The position numbers were made by a program, and so were the translations under genes. Below, one piece after another: positions 2,853 to 6,251 of a DNA stretch of 6,251 nt. Each line of letters opens with the position of its first letter. Position 1 is the first letter of the stretch. The notes below the pieces were generated by a model. It saw only the letters and a list, made by a program, of their open reading frames with translations. It was not told the DNA's origin and ran no database searches. The stretch spans positions 1 through 6,251 of the forward strand of contig JAICVV010000132.1 of assembly GCA_025935155.1 (NCBI GenBank). The letters run 5' to 3'. The DNA comes from Alphaproteobacteria bacterium (GTDB lineage Bacteria; Pseudomonadota; Alphaproteobacteria; Micropepsales; Micropepsaceae).

Positions 2853-3653
2853 ATGATCCGGCCAAACCCTCGCGACATCTCCGCCCTGCTCGACATCATG
2901 CGCCGCTTGCGCAACCCTGACGGCGGCTGCCCATGGGACGTGGAGCAGACCTTCGCCTCCATTGCGCCTTACACCATCGAGGAAGCCTACGAGGTCGCCG
3001 GCGCCATCGAGGAAGAGAACTGGGATCACCTGAAGGACGAGCTGGGCGACCTGCTGTTCCAGGTGGTGTTCCACGCCCGCATGGCGGAGGAACGCGGCCT
3101 GTTCGATTTCGGCGACGTGGTGGCTGCGGTCACCGACAAGATGGTGCGGCGGCATCCGCATGTGTTCGGCGATCTCGCAGGCATCGACACGGCGGAAGCG
3201 CAGATCAACGCGTGGGAGAAGCACAAGGCCCGCGAGCGCGCCGAGAAGCCGGATGCCAGCCTGCTGGACGATGTGCCCCGTGCCCTGCCTGCCCTGACCC
3301 GTGCGCTGAAACTTCAGAAACGCGCGGCAAGCGCCGGTTTCGATTGGGATTCCGCGCTCCGCGTCGTGGAAAAGCTAACGGAAGAAGCGAACGAGATCGT
3401 AGAAGCGAAAGCGTCCGGCGCGCCGCAATCGGACATCGAGGAAGAGGTGGGCGATCTGCTGTTTGTCGTCGCCAACCTCGCCCGGCACCTGAAGGTGCAG
3501 CCGGAAGATGCCCTGCGCGCCGCCAACGAGAAGTTCTCACGCCGCTTCTGCTTCATCGAGCAAAGCCTTCGCGCGCAAGGTAAATCTCCGCACGATGCCA
3601 CGCTGGATGAAATGGAATCCCTTTGGCAGGAAGCAAAGCGCGGCGAGCGTTAG
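2853..3653 (+). CDS. mazG: nucleoside triphosphate pyrophosphohydrolase MazG
   Basis: A 266-aa cytosolic enzyme that hydrolyses (d)NTPs to NMP and pyrophosphate, a house-cleaning role against aberrant nucleotides and, in some bacteria, a modulator of ppGpp levels. Two tandem MazG domains are visible. The first has EEAYE (43-47) and ELGD (63-66), the metal-binding EExxE...ExxD pattern, followed by DKMVRRHPHVFGD (95-107). The second has EEANE (177-181) and EVGD (198-201). The GGCPWD block near residues 24-29 and the length close to E. coli MazG (263 aa) support a full-length gene. The start is fixed by an in-frame stop at 2844-2846. Only a weak purine stretch precedes it, and translation may couple to the mini-ORF. 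Its stop overlaps that of the converging beta-lactamase gene. Confidence 0.96.
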   Translation: MIRPNPRDISALLDIMRRLRNPDGGCPWDVEQTFASIAPYTIEEAYEVAGAIEEENWDHLKDELGDLLFQVVFHARMAEERGLFDFGDVVAAVTDKMVRRHPHVFGDLAGIDTAEAQINAWEKHKARERAEKPDASLLDDVPRALPALTRALKLQKRAASAGFDWDSALRVVEKLTEEANEIVEAKASGAPQSDIEEEVGDLLFVVANLARHLKVQPEDALRAANEKFSRRFCFIEQSLRAQGKSPHDATLDEMESLWQEAKRGER

Positions 3654-4501
3654 CGGGTGAATTCCCTCGCCACCGTCCGGCCCACATCCGCCAGCACGGC
3701 GTCGCGCGATTCCGGATAGAGGCGCGAGCCGGTGTAATAGGCGGCAATCAGAATGGGCGCCCGGCCCGGCGGCGACACGATGGCCAAGTCGTTTGCGGTG
3801 CCGTTCGCGCCCGTGCCCATCTTGTGCCCGCTTTTCCAGTTCTTCGGCAGCCCCGCCGCCAGCCGCGGCATCCGCGTCTGGTAATGCACCAGCCAGTCGA
3901 CAAGCTGCGCCCGCGCCTTCGCCGATAGCGCATGACCGAGCAGCAGCACCCTCATATCGCCCAGCATGGCGGCGGGCGATGTGGTGTCGCGCGGATCGCC
4001 GGGGATGCAGGTGTTGGCGGATGGCTCGGTGCGGTCGAGCCGCGTGATCGAATCGCCCAGCGTGCGCACATAGGCCGTGACGCCGGCCGGTCCGCCAAGC
4101 TGGGCGAGCAGCAGATTGGCGGCGGTGTTGTCGCTCCACTGCGCGGCGGCCGCGGCGAGCGCGCCCAGTGTCATGCCGCCCTGCCCCACATGCGCGCGCG
4201 TGACCGGCACGTATTCGAGTAGGTCGCGCTCGCCGAACTTGATCCAGCGGTCGAGATGTTCGCGGCCTTCATCCGCGCGATGCAGAAGGTCCGAAACCGC
4301 AAGCAGCTTGAAGGTGCTGCACATGGGGAAGCGTTCGTCCGCGCGATAGTTGAGCCCCCTGCCGGAACCGGTGTCGAGCGCCGCAACGCCCAGATGCCCG
4401 CCGCCTTTCGTTTCGAGCGCCGCGAAGGTATTGGATTTTGCCCACGCGGGTGCGATCGCCAACGCGGCGGACGCTATCGCCAGTTCTCTACGATTCAGCA
4501 T
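3650..4501 (-). CDS. bla: class A beta-lactamase with KMG in place of KTG
   Basis: A 283-aa serine beta-lactamase that hydrolyses beta-lactams in the periplasm. The leader MLNRRELAIASAALAIAPAWA carries an RR pair and an A-x-A site, consistent with Tat export. Catalytic motifs are STFK (Ser62/Lys65; Ambler S70/K73), SDN (123-125; Ambler 130-132) and the omega-loop TEPSANTCIPGDPRDTT with Glu159 (E166) and Asn163 (N170). The third box reads HKMGTGANGTAND (226-238), so Ambler K234 is followed by Met235, not the usual Thr or Ser. Cys61 sits at Ambler 69, but the residue at 238 is Gly, so the 69-238 disulfide of some carbapenemases is absent. GGGGG lies close upstream of the ATG. The gene has no mobile-element neighbours and looks chromosomal. 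Spectrum cannot be read from sequence. Confidence 0.93.
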   Translation of the reverse strand: MLNRRELAIASAALAIAPAWAKSNTFAALETKGGGHLGVAALDTGSGRGLNYRADERFPMCSTFKLLAVSDLLHRADEGREHLDRWIKFGERDLLEYVPVTRAHVGQGGMTLGALAAAAAQWSDNTAANLLLAQLGGPAGVTAYVRTLGDSITRLDRTEPSANTCIPGDPRDTTSPAAMLGDMRVLLLGHALSAKARAQLVDWLVHYQTRMPRLAAGLPKNWKSGHKMGTGANGTANDLAIVSPPGRAPILIAAYYTGSRLYPESRDAVLADVGRTVAREFTR

Positions 4502-4537
4502 GCCGCCCCCGGTGTGCGATAAACGCCCTCCTCTATC

Positions 4538-4611
4538 GCCGCATTATGGCCGAAGCGGGACGCGTGGCGCAGTGGACAGGCGCATGCGGCTGCCGCATTA
4601 TGAGCATTATG
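4538..4611 (+). repeat. three GCATTATG repeats at candidate hicB starts
   Basis: GCCGCATTATG occurs at 4538-4548 and 4592-4602, and the core GCATTATG again at 4604-4611. Each copy ends in an ATG in the hicB reading frame (4546, 4600, 4609). They may be operator copies for autoregulation or simply alternative start contexts. Confidence 0.6.
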
Positions 4612-4815
4612 ATCACGTTCAAGCTTAAGAAAGACACCAAGGGATTCCACGCATGGAGTCCGGAATTGCCGGGCGTCCACACGCACGGGGCTACACGCGC
4701 GGCCGCGCTCGCCAATCTGAAAGACGCAGTGCGGCTTTATCTCGACGATGTGATGGAGGAATCTCTGCTGTCCGCGAAGGAGCCATCGCGCGCTTCCCGC
4801 CGTTCGGCGGCGTGA
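4600..4815 (+). CDS. hicB: HicB-family antitoxin
   Basis: A 71-aa protein (MSIMITFKLKKDTKGFHAW...) with the short HicB fold: a beta strand MITFKLKKD, FHAWSPELPGVHTHGAT (about 16-32) carrying the family's PELPG and GxT pattern, and a helix LANLKDAVRLYLDDVMEE (38-55). It would neutralise the adjacent HicA RNase. There is no C-terminal ribbon-helix-helix or HTH domain, unlike longer HicB proteins; the tail is a short Ser/Arg/Ala-rich stretch. The start is uncertain: in-frame ATGs at 4546, 4600 and 4609 all follow GCATT and none has a good SD; 4600 or 4609 gives the usual family N-terminus. hicB precedes hicA by 27 nt, the reverse of the classical hicAB order but common in this subfamily. It is divergent from bla. 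Confidence 0.85.
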   Translation: MSIMITFKLKKDTKGFHAWSPELPGVHTHGATRAAALANLKDAVRLYLDDVMEESLLSAKEPSRASRRSAA

Positions 4816-4842
4816 TGCTTCCGGCCAGAAATCGATCTGATA

Positions 4843-5037
4843 ATGAAGCCGCGCGAGCTGCGAAAAATTCTTGAGCAGAATGGGTTTATCTTCACGCGGC
4901 AATCTGGCAGCCACGCGATCTTCAAACATCCATCGAGCAAGCGCCGCGTCGTGCTTCCTATTCACAGCAGCGACATACCGGCTGGAACACTCAACGCAAT
5001 CCTGAAGGACGCTGGCCTGAAGCCAGGCAGGAAATAA
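4843..5037 (+). CDS. hicA: HicA-family mRNA interferase toxin
   Basis: A 64-aa toxin of the YcfA/HicA family, a small double-stranded-RNA-binding-like fold that cleaves mRNA during growth arrest. It begins MKPRELRKILEQNGF, then RQSGSHAIFKHP with the catalytic His at residue 24, RRVVLPIHSSDIPAGTL (34-50) and NAILKDAGLK (51-60), all family-typical and complete, so the toxin looks intact. Upstream of the ATG no strong SD is visible; coupling to hicB over the 27-nt gap or weak translation is likely, as expected for keeping toxin below antitoxin. Its stop lies 4 nt from the stop of the converging membrane protein gene. Confidence 0.93.
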   Translation: MKPRELRKILEQNGFIFTRQSGSHAIFKHPSSKRRVVLPIHSSDIPAGTLNAILKDAGLKPGRK

Positions 5038-5041
5038 GAAT

Positions 5042-5530
5042 TTACCGCCGCCACTTGCGTAAGGTCACCACACTCATCGCGATGGTGATCCACCAGGCGA
5101 GGATCGCACAGAACCCGAACACCACGCGGTCGAGCATGGCGTTCGATACTGGCATCCAAAGTCCGTCGATGCCCATCGAGAAATGCCGTGGCCCCGGGCC
5201 AAACGCCACCCAAGTGAACAGCATCGCCAGCCCGCCCGCTATGCCAACGCCGATGATGTCGTTCAGCGCGCGCAAAGCTCGCGGCGTCGTGGCCGGCAAG
5301 TCGCTGCTGTTGCCGTTCGCGCCAACCATGCCGCGCAGGATGACGATGAATCCCGCGCTCACGAATATCAGGCCGATCAGCCAGCCCATCCATGCGGGCG
5401 CGGGATCGGCCGTTGGCGCATTAGTACGCGGCAGAACGCCCATCATCGCCAGCAGCGGAATCGTACCCACCAACACGGTCATCACGCCAAGCGCGATAGT
5501 GACCTTGTTGGACGATGCGTTCCCGCCCAT
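5042..5530 (-). CDS. four-TM inner membrane protein, unknown function
   Basis: A 162-aa protein with four hydrophobic segments at roughly residues 10-31, 46-68, 90-110 and 130-153 (VTIALGVMTVLVGTIPLLAMM, WLIGLIFVSAGFIVILRGM, IIGVGIAGGLAMLFTWVAF, VVFGFCAILAWWITIAMSVV), so an integral membrane protein. After the third helix comes FGPGPRHFSMG, a motif I have seen in unnamed proteobacterial membrane proteins; no function is known to me. ATG at 5530 is preferred over GTG at 5536 because GGAG stands 5 nt before the ATG, while the GTG overlaps that SD. Its stop is 4 nt from that of hicA on the other strand. A 7-bp inverted repeat covers its SD. Confidence 0.78.
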   Translation of the reverse strand: MGGNASSNKVTIALGVMTVLVGTIPLLAMMGVLPRTNAPTADPAPAWMGWLIGLIFVSAGFIVILRGMVGANGNSSDLPATTPRALRALNDIIGVGIAGGLAMLFTWVAFGPGPRHFSMGIDGLWMPVSNAMLDRVVFGFCAILAWWITIAMSVVTLRKWRR

Positions 5531-5588: not shown

Positions 5589-5631
5589 ATTGTCATCCCC
5601 GGCGAGCATCGTGCCCGTCCGCGCGCGATGC
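5589..5631 (+). repeat. repeat copy C (solo) of the hairpin repeat
   Basis: Begins ATTGTCATCCCC and shares its first 26 nt (5589-5614) exactly with copy A at 5729-5754. It then holds the arms GCATCG (5606-5611) and CGATGC (5626-5631), extended inward by a G-T pair and two more pairs before a mismatch. It lies in the same orientation as copy A, 140 bp away, but lacks the downstream GAGGGAAGGGGA block. Confidence 0.8.
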
Positions 5632-5652
5632 CAAGGTGCCGCGCAACACTTC

Positions 5653-5700: not shown

Positions 5701-5731
5701 TTCGCGGCAGCGAACGGCTTGACCCAATATT

Positions 5732-5789
5732 GTCATCCCCGGCGAGCATCGTGCGCATCCGCGCGCGATGCGAGGGAAGGGGACCCAGG
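5732..5789 (+). repeat. repeat copy A (left inverted repeat of the nuclease unit)
   Basis: Starts GTCATCCCCGGCGAGCATCG and ends GGGAAGGGGACCCAGG. It matches the reverse complement of copy B at 51 of 58 positions, with most differences in a 12-nt central stretch. Internal arms GCATCGTGCGC (5746-5756) and GCGCGCGATGC (5761-5771) pair over 11 bp with one G-T, closed by ATCC. It encodes the last 18 residues and the stop of the GIY-YIG gene on the minus strand. Confidence 0.88.
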
Positions 5790-6104
5790 GAGTTCCGGCA
5801 GCGCGATCTCGCCGAGTAGGCGCACATACAGACCGTTCCAGCCGGAGTTGTGCTTCTCGATCAGGCGGATTTTCCATGCGCGATTCCAGCCTTTGATCTG
5901 CTTCTCTCGCGCGATGGCTTCGTGAATGTCGGTGTGCAACTCGTACCAGACAAGAATGTGGACGCCGTACTTTCTGGTGAAACCGGCGACGACGTTGTTC
6001 TTGTGCTGCCACGTCCGGCGGAGCACGTCATTGGTGACGCCGGTGTAGAGGGTGCCGTTGCGGCGGCTCGCCAGCGGGCACACGAAATACACGTGCCCTT
6101 TCAT
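5733..6104 (-). CDS. GIY-YIG nuclease family protein (YhbQ/UvrC-N-like)
   Basis: A 123-aa protein with a single GIY-YIG nuclease domain of the small bacterial COG2827 type. Visible are HVYFVC (4-9, the GIY strand), TLYTGV (18-23, YIG as YTG), RRTWQHK (29-35) with the conserved Arg, FTRKYGVHILVWYE (42-55), and AIAREKQIKGWNRAWK (63-78) carrying the metal-binding Glu67. It is expected to be a metal-dependent DNA-cleaving protein; cellular roles of this class are poorly known. Relatives are about 95 aa; here about 18 extra C-terminal residues (106-123) and the stop are encoded by repeat copy A, so the tail is probably not functional. The ATG at 6104 follows a weak GCGAGA and lies 22 nt from repeat copy B. 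An upstream frame through copy B is open but unlikely to be translated. Confidence 0.88.
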   Translation of the reverse strand: MKGHVYFVCPLASRRNGTLYTGVTNDVLRRTWQHKNNVVAGFTRKYGVHILVWYELHTDIHEAIAREKQIKGWNRAWKIRLIEKHNSGWNGLYVRLLGEIALPELPGSPSLASRADAHDARRG

Positions 6105-6125
6105 GTATCTCGCGCTTGACCGGCA

Positions 6126-6183
6126 CCTGGCTCCCCTTCCCTCGCATCGTGCGCCCGCACGCACGATGCTCGCCGGGGATGAC
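6126..6183 (-). repeat. repeat copy B (right inverted repeat of the nuclease unit)
   Basis: Reverse complement of copy A at 51 of 58 positions. Its internal arms GCATCGTGCG (6144-6153) and CGCACGATGC (6160-6169) form a perfect 10-bp stem with a 6-nt loop. The loop-proximal sequence differs from copy A while the outer stem is kept in both, so the hairpin looks like the conserved part. Confidence 0.88.
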
Positions 6184-6251
6184 ACGCAGTGTACTGTCTC
6201 CTAGGAAGAGGAGTTGATTCCGGACCTATTTTGTTCTATATGAGACGGATG
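6184..6251. other. right-edge non-coding stretch
   Basis: No gene is supported here. AGGAAGAGGAG (6203-6213) is purine-rich like an SD, but the TTG that follows opens only nine codons. The region turns AT-rich near 6226-6241, and an ATG at 6240 reads MRRM to the window edge without a good SD, so it may or may not start a gene beyond the window. Confidence 0.3.

Follow-up and report, generated by a model that had tools for sequence, protein, structure and literature searches.

Repetitive extragenic palindromes (REPs) are common short repeats of bacteria. In the parts available to us, a survey from 2013 sorts out two large superfamilies of them, and one of these, the CGTC-tagged REPs, occurs mostly in alphaproteobacteria (Di Nocera et al., 2013; PMC3733652). 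These repeats have a CGTC head (often TGTC or CCTC), a stem of 8–9 bp that starts with AT, a loop of 4–5 nt and a CCA tail, and the neisserial dRS3 and rickettsial RPE-4/6 elements are placed in the same class. According to the same parts of the survey, the CGTC repeats have no link to transposase genes, a dedicated transposase is apparently absent, and their enzyme may have vanished early (PMC3733652). Here we describe a gene for a small GIY-YIG nuclease that lies between two inverted repeats of this class in a DNA stretch of 6,251 bases from an alphaproteobacterium of the family Micropepsaceae. This stretch, referred to as the window, is one entire contig (JAICVV010000132.1) of an assembly of 2.46 Mb that is 82% complete (GCA_025935155.1). 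We conclude that gene and repeats form a pairing similar to the REPtrons, in which RAYT/TnpA_REP transposases go with GTAG-tagged REPs, but built on an unrelated nuclease. The GIY-YIG enzyme would be the dedicated partner of its own CGTC-class REP type, cutting the hairpin at its base and spreading both the complete unit and gene-less copies. We put the probability of this reading at roughly 0.7.

The unit and its surroundings in the window consist of the following features:

5733..6104, minus strand: GIY-YIG nuclease gene of 123 aa, with the ATG at 6104 and the TGA at 5735–5733, inside the left REP.
5731..5787, plus strand: left CGTC-class REP, long variant, called by the relaxed REP detector; TGTC tag outward, inner hairpin, GGGGACCCA end facing the gene.
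6128..6184, minus strand: right CGTC-class REP of the same type, inverted, called by the relaxed REP detector; tag outward.
5591..5636, plus strand: third REP copy, truncated (tag and inner hairpin sequence only), recognized by its likeness to the left REP.

A first-pass annotation of this DNA had reported a 123-aa GIY-YIG gene between inverted 58-bp repeats that match at 51 positions and contain an internal hairpin each, and both points were confirmed. The arms at 5732–5789 and 6126–6183 are identical at 51 of 58 positions (52 of 59 if one base is added; 88% over 59 nt in a separate comparison), and the protein matches PF01541 (E = 2.2e-14, 53.9 bits against a curated cut-off of 22.6). As single-stranded DNA, both 57-nt arms fold in the same way, an outer stem of 5 bp carrying an inner hairpin of 11 bp, with −17.1 kcal/mol (z −2.3) for the left arm and −17.0 kcal/mol (z −2.9) for the right. 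Both arms start with TGTC and finish with CCA, and this head and tail, like the AT start, agree with a CGTC-tagged REP. The short stem (8–9 bp, AT start, 4–5 nt loop) is seen in many relatives but not in the window type. As the 5-bp outer stem and 11-bp inner hairpin replace the single stem of 8–9 bp and its loop of 4–5 nt, the window repeats are long variants of CGTC-tagged REPs. The tags in relatives are CGTC or TGTC. No known RNA family matched the window in Rfam at gathering score.

Two other parts of the earlier description stood only partly. The gene is indeed flanked on both sides, but it is not strictly bounded by the repeats: its final codons and TGA stop lie within the left one, where the stop is the TCA of the TGTCAT tag on the opposite strand. 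The solo copy described nearby is present at 5591–5636, where it is 92% identical to the left REP over 48 nt (5589–5636), and outside both arms no 59-mer on either strand of the window comes closer to the left arm (44 of 59), but this copy is truncated, lacks the GGGGACCCA end and folds no better than shuffled sequences. A sphingomonad host, which the annotation had guessed, was not confirmed.

The same arrangement is found at many other loci. A genome collection was scanned with an alignment of 11 nuclease sequences, and the best 80 of at least 585 confirmed stretches were kept. REPs were identified with a strict detector, which requires YGTCA, 7 or more pairs in a stem of 8 bp, and a CCA tail; a relaxed rule was added to it to catch the long type of the window. 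The strict detector found 183 REPs in the 69.8 kb within 300 bp of the gene (2.62 per kb) and 111 REPs in the remaining 1,127 kb of these 80 loci (0.099 per kb), while its reversed-sequence control gave 0 REPs near and 5 far. With the relaxed rule, a REP lies within 250 bp on at least one side in 74 of the 80 loci and on both sides in 50, and the nearest REPs on both sides point their tags outward in 39. Other open frames of 80–160 aa in the same loci, taken mechanically from all six frames, have a REP near in 117 of 2558 cases and on both sides in 4 of 2558. The densities and the 74 loci thus exclude an outcome that the first-pass annotation had named as refuting, namely repeats scattered without association with GIY-YIG genes. 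By record title the loci belong to Alpha-, Beta-, Gamma- and Deltaproteobacteria, Chloroflexi, the candidate phyla radiation (CPR), Nitrospirota, Elusimicrobia, Planctomycetota, Bacteroidota and others, although some of these labels may be wrong since most are metagenome bins. As subfamily relatives in very different bacteria mostly adjoin such repeats, the enzyme is likely the long-missing partner of the CGTC REPs.

A plasmid sample of 12 loci was fetched from 35 matched records. REPs lie within 250 bp on both sides in five of these (L215, L216, L218, L219, L223) and on one side in two (L214, L224). The detector requires YGTCA and CCA and therefore misses other heads and tails, and the loci were also inspected by eye. 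In Sinorhizobium (L213, L217) the subfamily genes are flanked by CCTC-headed hairpins missed by the detector, which may be the known RIME elements. On the Novosphingobium plasmid pNL2 (L221) the gene is flanked by CGTCG/TTGG hairpins, which the detector also misses. On a plasmid of Planktothrix agardhii (L222) it lies between an MmeI-type restriction gene and the DISARM gene drmA, flanked by several TGTCATTCTGAG repeats. No REP-like hairpin was found close to the gene at L220, either with the detector or by eye. The subfamily GIY-YIG frame of Neisseria gonorrhoeae (L214, 2361–2870) is absent from the gene table of the collection; dRS3-like CGTCATTCCCGC repeats lie near it, one side found by the detector and the other by eye. 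In Photobacterium (L224) seven REP(+)–REP(−) dimers stand in tandem at 2967–5137, the first of them about 180 bp downstream of the subfamily gene.

The association is specific to one subfamily of GIY-YIG proteins. PF01541 gave 143 matches in 41 related genomes, of which 114 were examined (93 non-uvrC and 21 uvrC-type) and 29 were left aside. The non-uvrC loci fall into two score groups against the subfamily profile: 54 exceed 70 bits, and the other 39 stay under 60 bits or have no score. Within 250 bp, a REP was found near 43 of the 54 subfamily loci, on both sides in 30 and with the nearest tags outward in 25. Only 1 of the 39 other non-uvrC loci and 2 of the 21 uvrC loci have a REP that close, in no case on both sides or with outward tags. 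RAYT/Y1 transposases were considered as movers of these REPs and rejected: they gave 31 matches in the 41 genomes, and of the 30 with a locus, one has a REP within 250 bp and none has REPs on both sides.

By sequence comparison, the REP type follows the nuclease sequence and not the host genome. Outward-tagged REPs stand on both sides in 73 of 134 subfamily loci, a total that includes two genomic loci twice (L053/L144 and L054/L141). In the first nine stem bases the two ends of one unit agree at 0.93 and are identical in 40 of the 73, and units within one genome agree at 0.73 (160 comparisons). For the 34 units of the window's genus, protein identity and REP stem identity are correlated with a Mantel rank rho of 0.46, a value not attained in 2000 free permutations nor in 2000 others kept within genomes. 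Stem agreement is 0.95 where two units come from different genomes and their proteins share 70% identity or more (26 pairs), 0.67 for same-genome pairs with proteins below 60% (36 pairs) and 0.68 for such pairs across genomes (372 pairs). Several units with differing REP types share one genome, with seven of the 34 genus units in G008 and six in G013. When 53 of the 54 subfamily loci were aligned, all 9 with at least 66% identity to the window protein (window included) carried the long TGTCATCCCCGGC...AGGGGANCCA type, and below 66% it was seen in 1 of 44, at 63%. The gene is thus bordered by cognate REPs whose type tracks the enzyme, as in a REPtron. That a small GIY-YIG protein could be the partner of a dispersed hairpin repeat, as first proposed from the window alone, is strongly supported by this type tracking together with the recurrence across phyla and the restriction to one subfamily.

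The long REP type is also dispersed away from the nuclease genes. It occurs in 16 of the 41 genomes, all in the window's genus (control 0); the window's genome has 6 copies and the richest genome, G013, has 54. This excludes that the repeat is absent elsewhere. The clade of the window's nuclease was defined by protein identity and not by REP type, and both definitions yield the same seven genomes. After the nuclease-flanking REPs had been subtracted by hand, these seven genomes with a similar nuclease of intact length hold 4–50 long copies; the 18 other genomes of the genus hold 0–28, and nine of them have none (Mann–Whitney p = 0.007).

Many of the long-type copies are heads-out dimers, REP(+)–spacer–REP(−), but this orientation does not represent an unbiased count since nearly all of the 40 places fetched were chosen for showing that order. 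The spacers of the 38 long-type dimers at these places are 30–32 nt in 13 cases (G008, G016, G022), 58–91 nt in 23 and longer in two, and 35 of the 38 start with GG and end with CC. These REP–spacer–REP dimers look like a gene-less form of the nuclease unit. In those units where both long REPs were seen, each REP is complete and not half of one split site. At L275 a dimer of the CGTCATCGCCCGG type is nested inside the spacer of a long-type dimer.

The hairpin tips are hypervariable, with 96 distinct tips in 99 REPs (L237–L276 and the long REPs of the genus), and the base is conserved. The tips still fold better than shuffled sequences (median z −2.7), and both template switching and hairpin cleavage followed by repair are candidate sources of the variation. 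A minority of dimers and units (L237, L245, L093, L131, L151) lie between complementary, terminator-like outer flanks, such as AAAACTCCGC and GCGGAGTTTT on the two sides of the L245 dimer. This might reflect insertion into hairpin loops: in three sets the mean complementary run of the outer flanks was reached by 1, 5 and 0 of 500 partner shuffles. For flank runs of at least 5, the counts do not stand out in two of these sets, and hairpin-loop insertion is therefore a lead only.

From these patterns we infer that the nuclease would both cut and spread the REPs. The enzyme might recognize the conserved base of the REP (tag, lower stem and CCA tail), leaving the tip free to vary, and break one strand there, just as branched DNA is cut by Slx1-like GIY-YIG enzymes. 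Repair of the break, or replication through it, would then copy the unit or the dimer into new intergenic sites. GIY-YIG enzymes are believed to hydrolyse DNA and not to transfer strands, so host repair would be needed and a direct transposase step is not expected. A more far-reaching version, to which we give slightly less than an even chance, is that REP–GIY-YIG–REP units constitute a new class of bacterial mobile element. As autonomous units they would drive the CGTC REP superfamily in its entirety, from the alphaproteobacterial REPs to the neisserial dRS3, and would move via hairpin cleavage by a lone GIY-YIG nuclease, with the hypervariable yet paired tips as the scar of cleavage and repair.

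The gene has a patchy distribution. In a survey of 240 genomes of the class, where the subfamily was called at E ≤ 1e-26 (a cut-off of our own), it was present in 68. With a REP pattern that leaves some stem types uncovered, at least two hits were found in 40 of these 68 genomes and in 19 of the 172 without the gene (Fisher odds ratio 11.5, p = 1e-13, uncorrected for kinship), and 1054 of all 1259 pattern hits fall in gene-bearing genomes. One genome (G147) has ten strong subfamily matches. The presence in 68 of 240 genomes bears on the likeliest of the alternatives, a housekeeping role, in which a Slx1-like structure-specific nuclease, retained next to the REPs, would resolve their hairpins or cruciforms without spreading them and the REPs would be moved by some other enzyme. 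We consider this unlikely. Besides being patchy, the gene is broken beside REPs in two genomes: in G023 a similar nuclease, flanked by an intact long REP on either side, is split over two frames by a break or a misassembly, and in G016 a broken one stands beside one long REP. The gene also has empty sites, and several units with different REP types in one genome (G008, G013) would be superfluous for a caretaker.

The empty sites were seen when orthologous loci were compared in a few plasmids. In Azospirillum lipoferum 4B the unit between sufB and sufC consists of the gene with two heads-out dimers around it. Without any REP between them, sufB and sufC are adjacent in A. ramasamyi, A. oryzae and Azospirillum sp. 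B510, where the flanking genes are 95–97% identical, and the detector found no REP in the 50 kb around sufB–sufC in these three. Over 50 kb of the four Azospirillum plasmids, dispersed REPs number five in one and none in three. Shinella sp. PSBB067 also has a subfamily gene in the sufB–sufC gap (one REP detected, the second by eye), Sinorhizobium meliloti has no subfamily gene there, and another Shinella unit is absent at the same place in three relatives. The units share with insertion sequences both terminal inverted repeats, here the similar inverted REPs, and empty sites (Azospirillum, Shinella). Gain of the unit in the A. lipoferum and Shinella lineages is the simple reading of these loci, though loss in the sisters is also possible. 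No empty site could be read for the window's own unit, because its neighbour gene was found in no more than 2 of 60 genomes of the genus, one of them the window's own. Within-genome copies do not fix the exact unit ends either, as the L144/L151 pair is 85% identical over 565 nt and the similarity continues 40–55 nt past the REPs.

These sites also count against a rather improbable reading, in which the nuclease is a homing endonuclease whose gene inserts copies of itself into REP dimers after cutting them, with the REPs as mere targets that are multiplied otherwise. GIY-YIG is a homing-endonuclease superfamily according to the available part of PMC1564403, and the genus has many gene-less REP–spacer–REP dimers, which might serve as empty targets; but the sufB–sufC gaps of the three Azospirillum sisters have no REP and the detector found none in the surrounding 50 kb, so the A. 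lipoferum unit probably did not enter an existing one, and both long REPs of the units are complete where seen and not split halves. The last alternative, a mere passenger gene, is very unlikely. In this reading REPs could gather for reasons unrelated to the enzyme (as terminators or because insertions favour the same place), or the gene could be carried along by Y1 (RAYT-like) transposases that move REPs. In the REP-rich genomes surveyed, most REPs do indeed have convergent or unidirectional ORFs on their two sides (PMC3733652, available parts), and a minority of dimers and units lie within terminator-like inverted flanks, but the pattern is missing in other non-uvrC GIY-YIG genes (1/39), uvrC (2/21), frames of similar size (4/2558 on both sides) and Y1 loci of the same genomes (1/30, none on both sides), and the REP type tracks the nuclease sequence inside genomes.

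Several points weigh against a nuclease that is the dedicated partner and mover of its REPs. No cutting, excision or transposition has been observed. The congruence between nuclease and REP could arise from co-inheritance of one block without recognition and hence shows pairing, not recognition. A REP within 250 bp was not detected at 11 of the 54 subfamily loci in the 41 genomes, nor at 5 of the 12 plasmid loci (L213, L217, L220, L221, L222). In the class survey, 28 of the 68 genomes with the gene yield one pattern hit at most, possibly because the REP pattern misses some stem types. Long REPs are also present without an intact similar nuclease in G007 (26 copies), G010 (12), G016 (19) and G022 (28). 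Finally, target duplications and exact junctions are not readable, with sister loci either too diverged or without REPs.

PF01541 is the only domain found in the window protein, which thus has no Y1/HuH transposase domain of the REPtron type. Residues Y20, R30, H34, E67 and N86 are invariant in all 102 aligned sequences, and we take them to be the catalytic positions of GIY-YIG enzymes (the Tyr of YIG, Arg, His/Tyr, Glu and Asn). Position 9, the first Tyr (of GIY), is Tyr in 101 of the 102 sequences and Cys in the window copy, and with this active-site Tyr replaced the window's own nuclease is likely impaired. A structure model built from the 102 sequences has a predicted local distance difference test (pLDDT) score of 84.5 and supersedes an earlier, poor model from 42 close relatives (63.8). 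Its best structural matches are Slx1, UPF0213, I-TevI and UvrC, and the sequence-profile match to UPF0213 has an E of 4e-9. A phage or defence gene was considered and rejected, as no PHROGs or PADLOC families matched at E ≤ 0.001. Elsewhere in the window we observed a HicB-like and HicA toxin-antitoxin pair at 4618–5037 (PF07927, E 5e-22; PF15919 under its cut-off), a class A beta-lactamase family gene at 3650–4501 (NF033103 over cut-off) and, by eye only, small frames at 1–1700 that resemble phage-type cell-wall hydrolase and tail genes.

The first-pass annotation knew of no described pairing of a small GIY-YIG protein with a dispersed hairpin repeat, and among the records listed in the literature searched (titles and the starts of abstracts, with preprints and most subscription papers outside) none tied GIY-YIG genes to REPs. 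A search combining GIY-YIG with dRS3 gave no paper. No such link appears in the available parts of RepRanger (PMC12306157), the GIY-YIG survey (PMC1564403), the TnpA_REP study (PMC8266576) or the meningococcal review (PMC3898611), and no mention of GIY was found in those of PMC3733652. A candidate enzyme can be named for a superfamily reported without a dedicated transposase: its gene has such REPs within 250 bp on both sides in 50 of 80 loci, and repeat type matches enzyme type. Should it prove to be the partner, nuclease folds with no relation to each other have on two independent occasions been turned into the engines of tagged hairpin repeats, and a bacterial element can be driven by a GIY-YIG enzyme alone.

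Slx1 and the UPF0213 proteins (BH0048, EF2693) share the GIY-YIG fold with the nuclease described here. We know of no repeat association for UPF0213, and the other non-uvrC GIY-YIG genes of the same genomes have no REPs, save 1 of 39. Slx1 differs in being a eukaryotic enzyme with a RING domain (PMC1564403, available part). GIY-YIG homing endonucleases and Penelope elements also tie such a nuclease to genetic mobility, but the units read showed neither an intron nor an intein nor a reverse transcriptase, and the gene here stands between two complete inverted hairpins. The repeats share with the CGTC-tagged REPs, including dRS3 and RPE-4/6, the CGTC/TGTC head, AT-start stem, CCA tail, dimers and dispersal. 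They differ in that those REPs were described without a dedicated enzyme (PMC3733652, available parts), whereas two of them stand on either side of a nuclease gene here, and in that the window type has a long variable inner hairpin and not a loop of 4–5 nt. The closest likeness in organization is to the REPtrons, where, as far as the available parts of the sources show, a nuclease gene is bordered by tagged palindromes that also occur scattered, singly or as dimers, the type of the repeat varies together with that of the enzyme, and several enzyme–repeat sets may share one genome (PMC3733652; PMC8266576). TnpA_REP is mostly single-copy (PMC8266576, available part), in contrast to the ten strong subfamily matches of G147, and strand-transfer chemistry is not known for the GIY-YIG unit. 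As the enzyme is GIY-YIG and not HuH/Y1, and the tag is CGTC/TGTC and not GTAG, the unit is functionally REPtron-like without being a member of the REPtrons.
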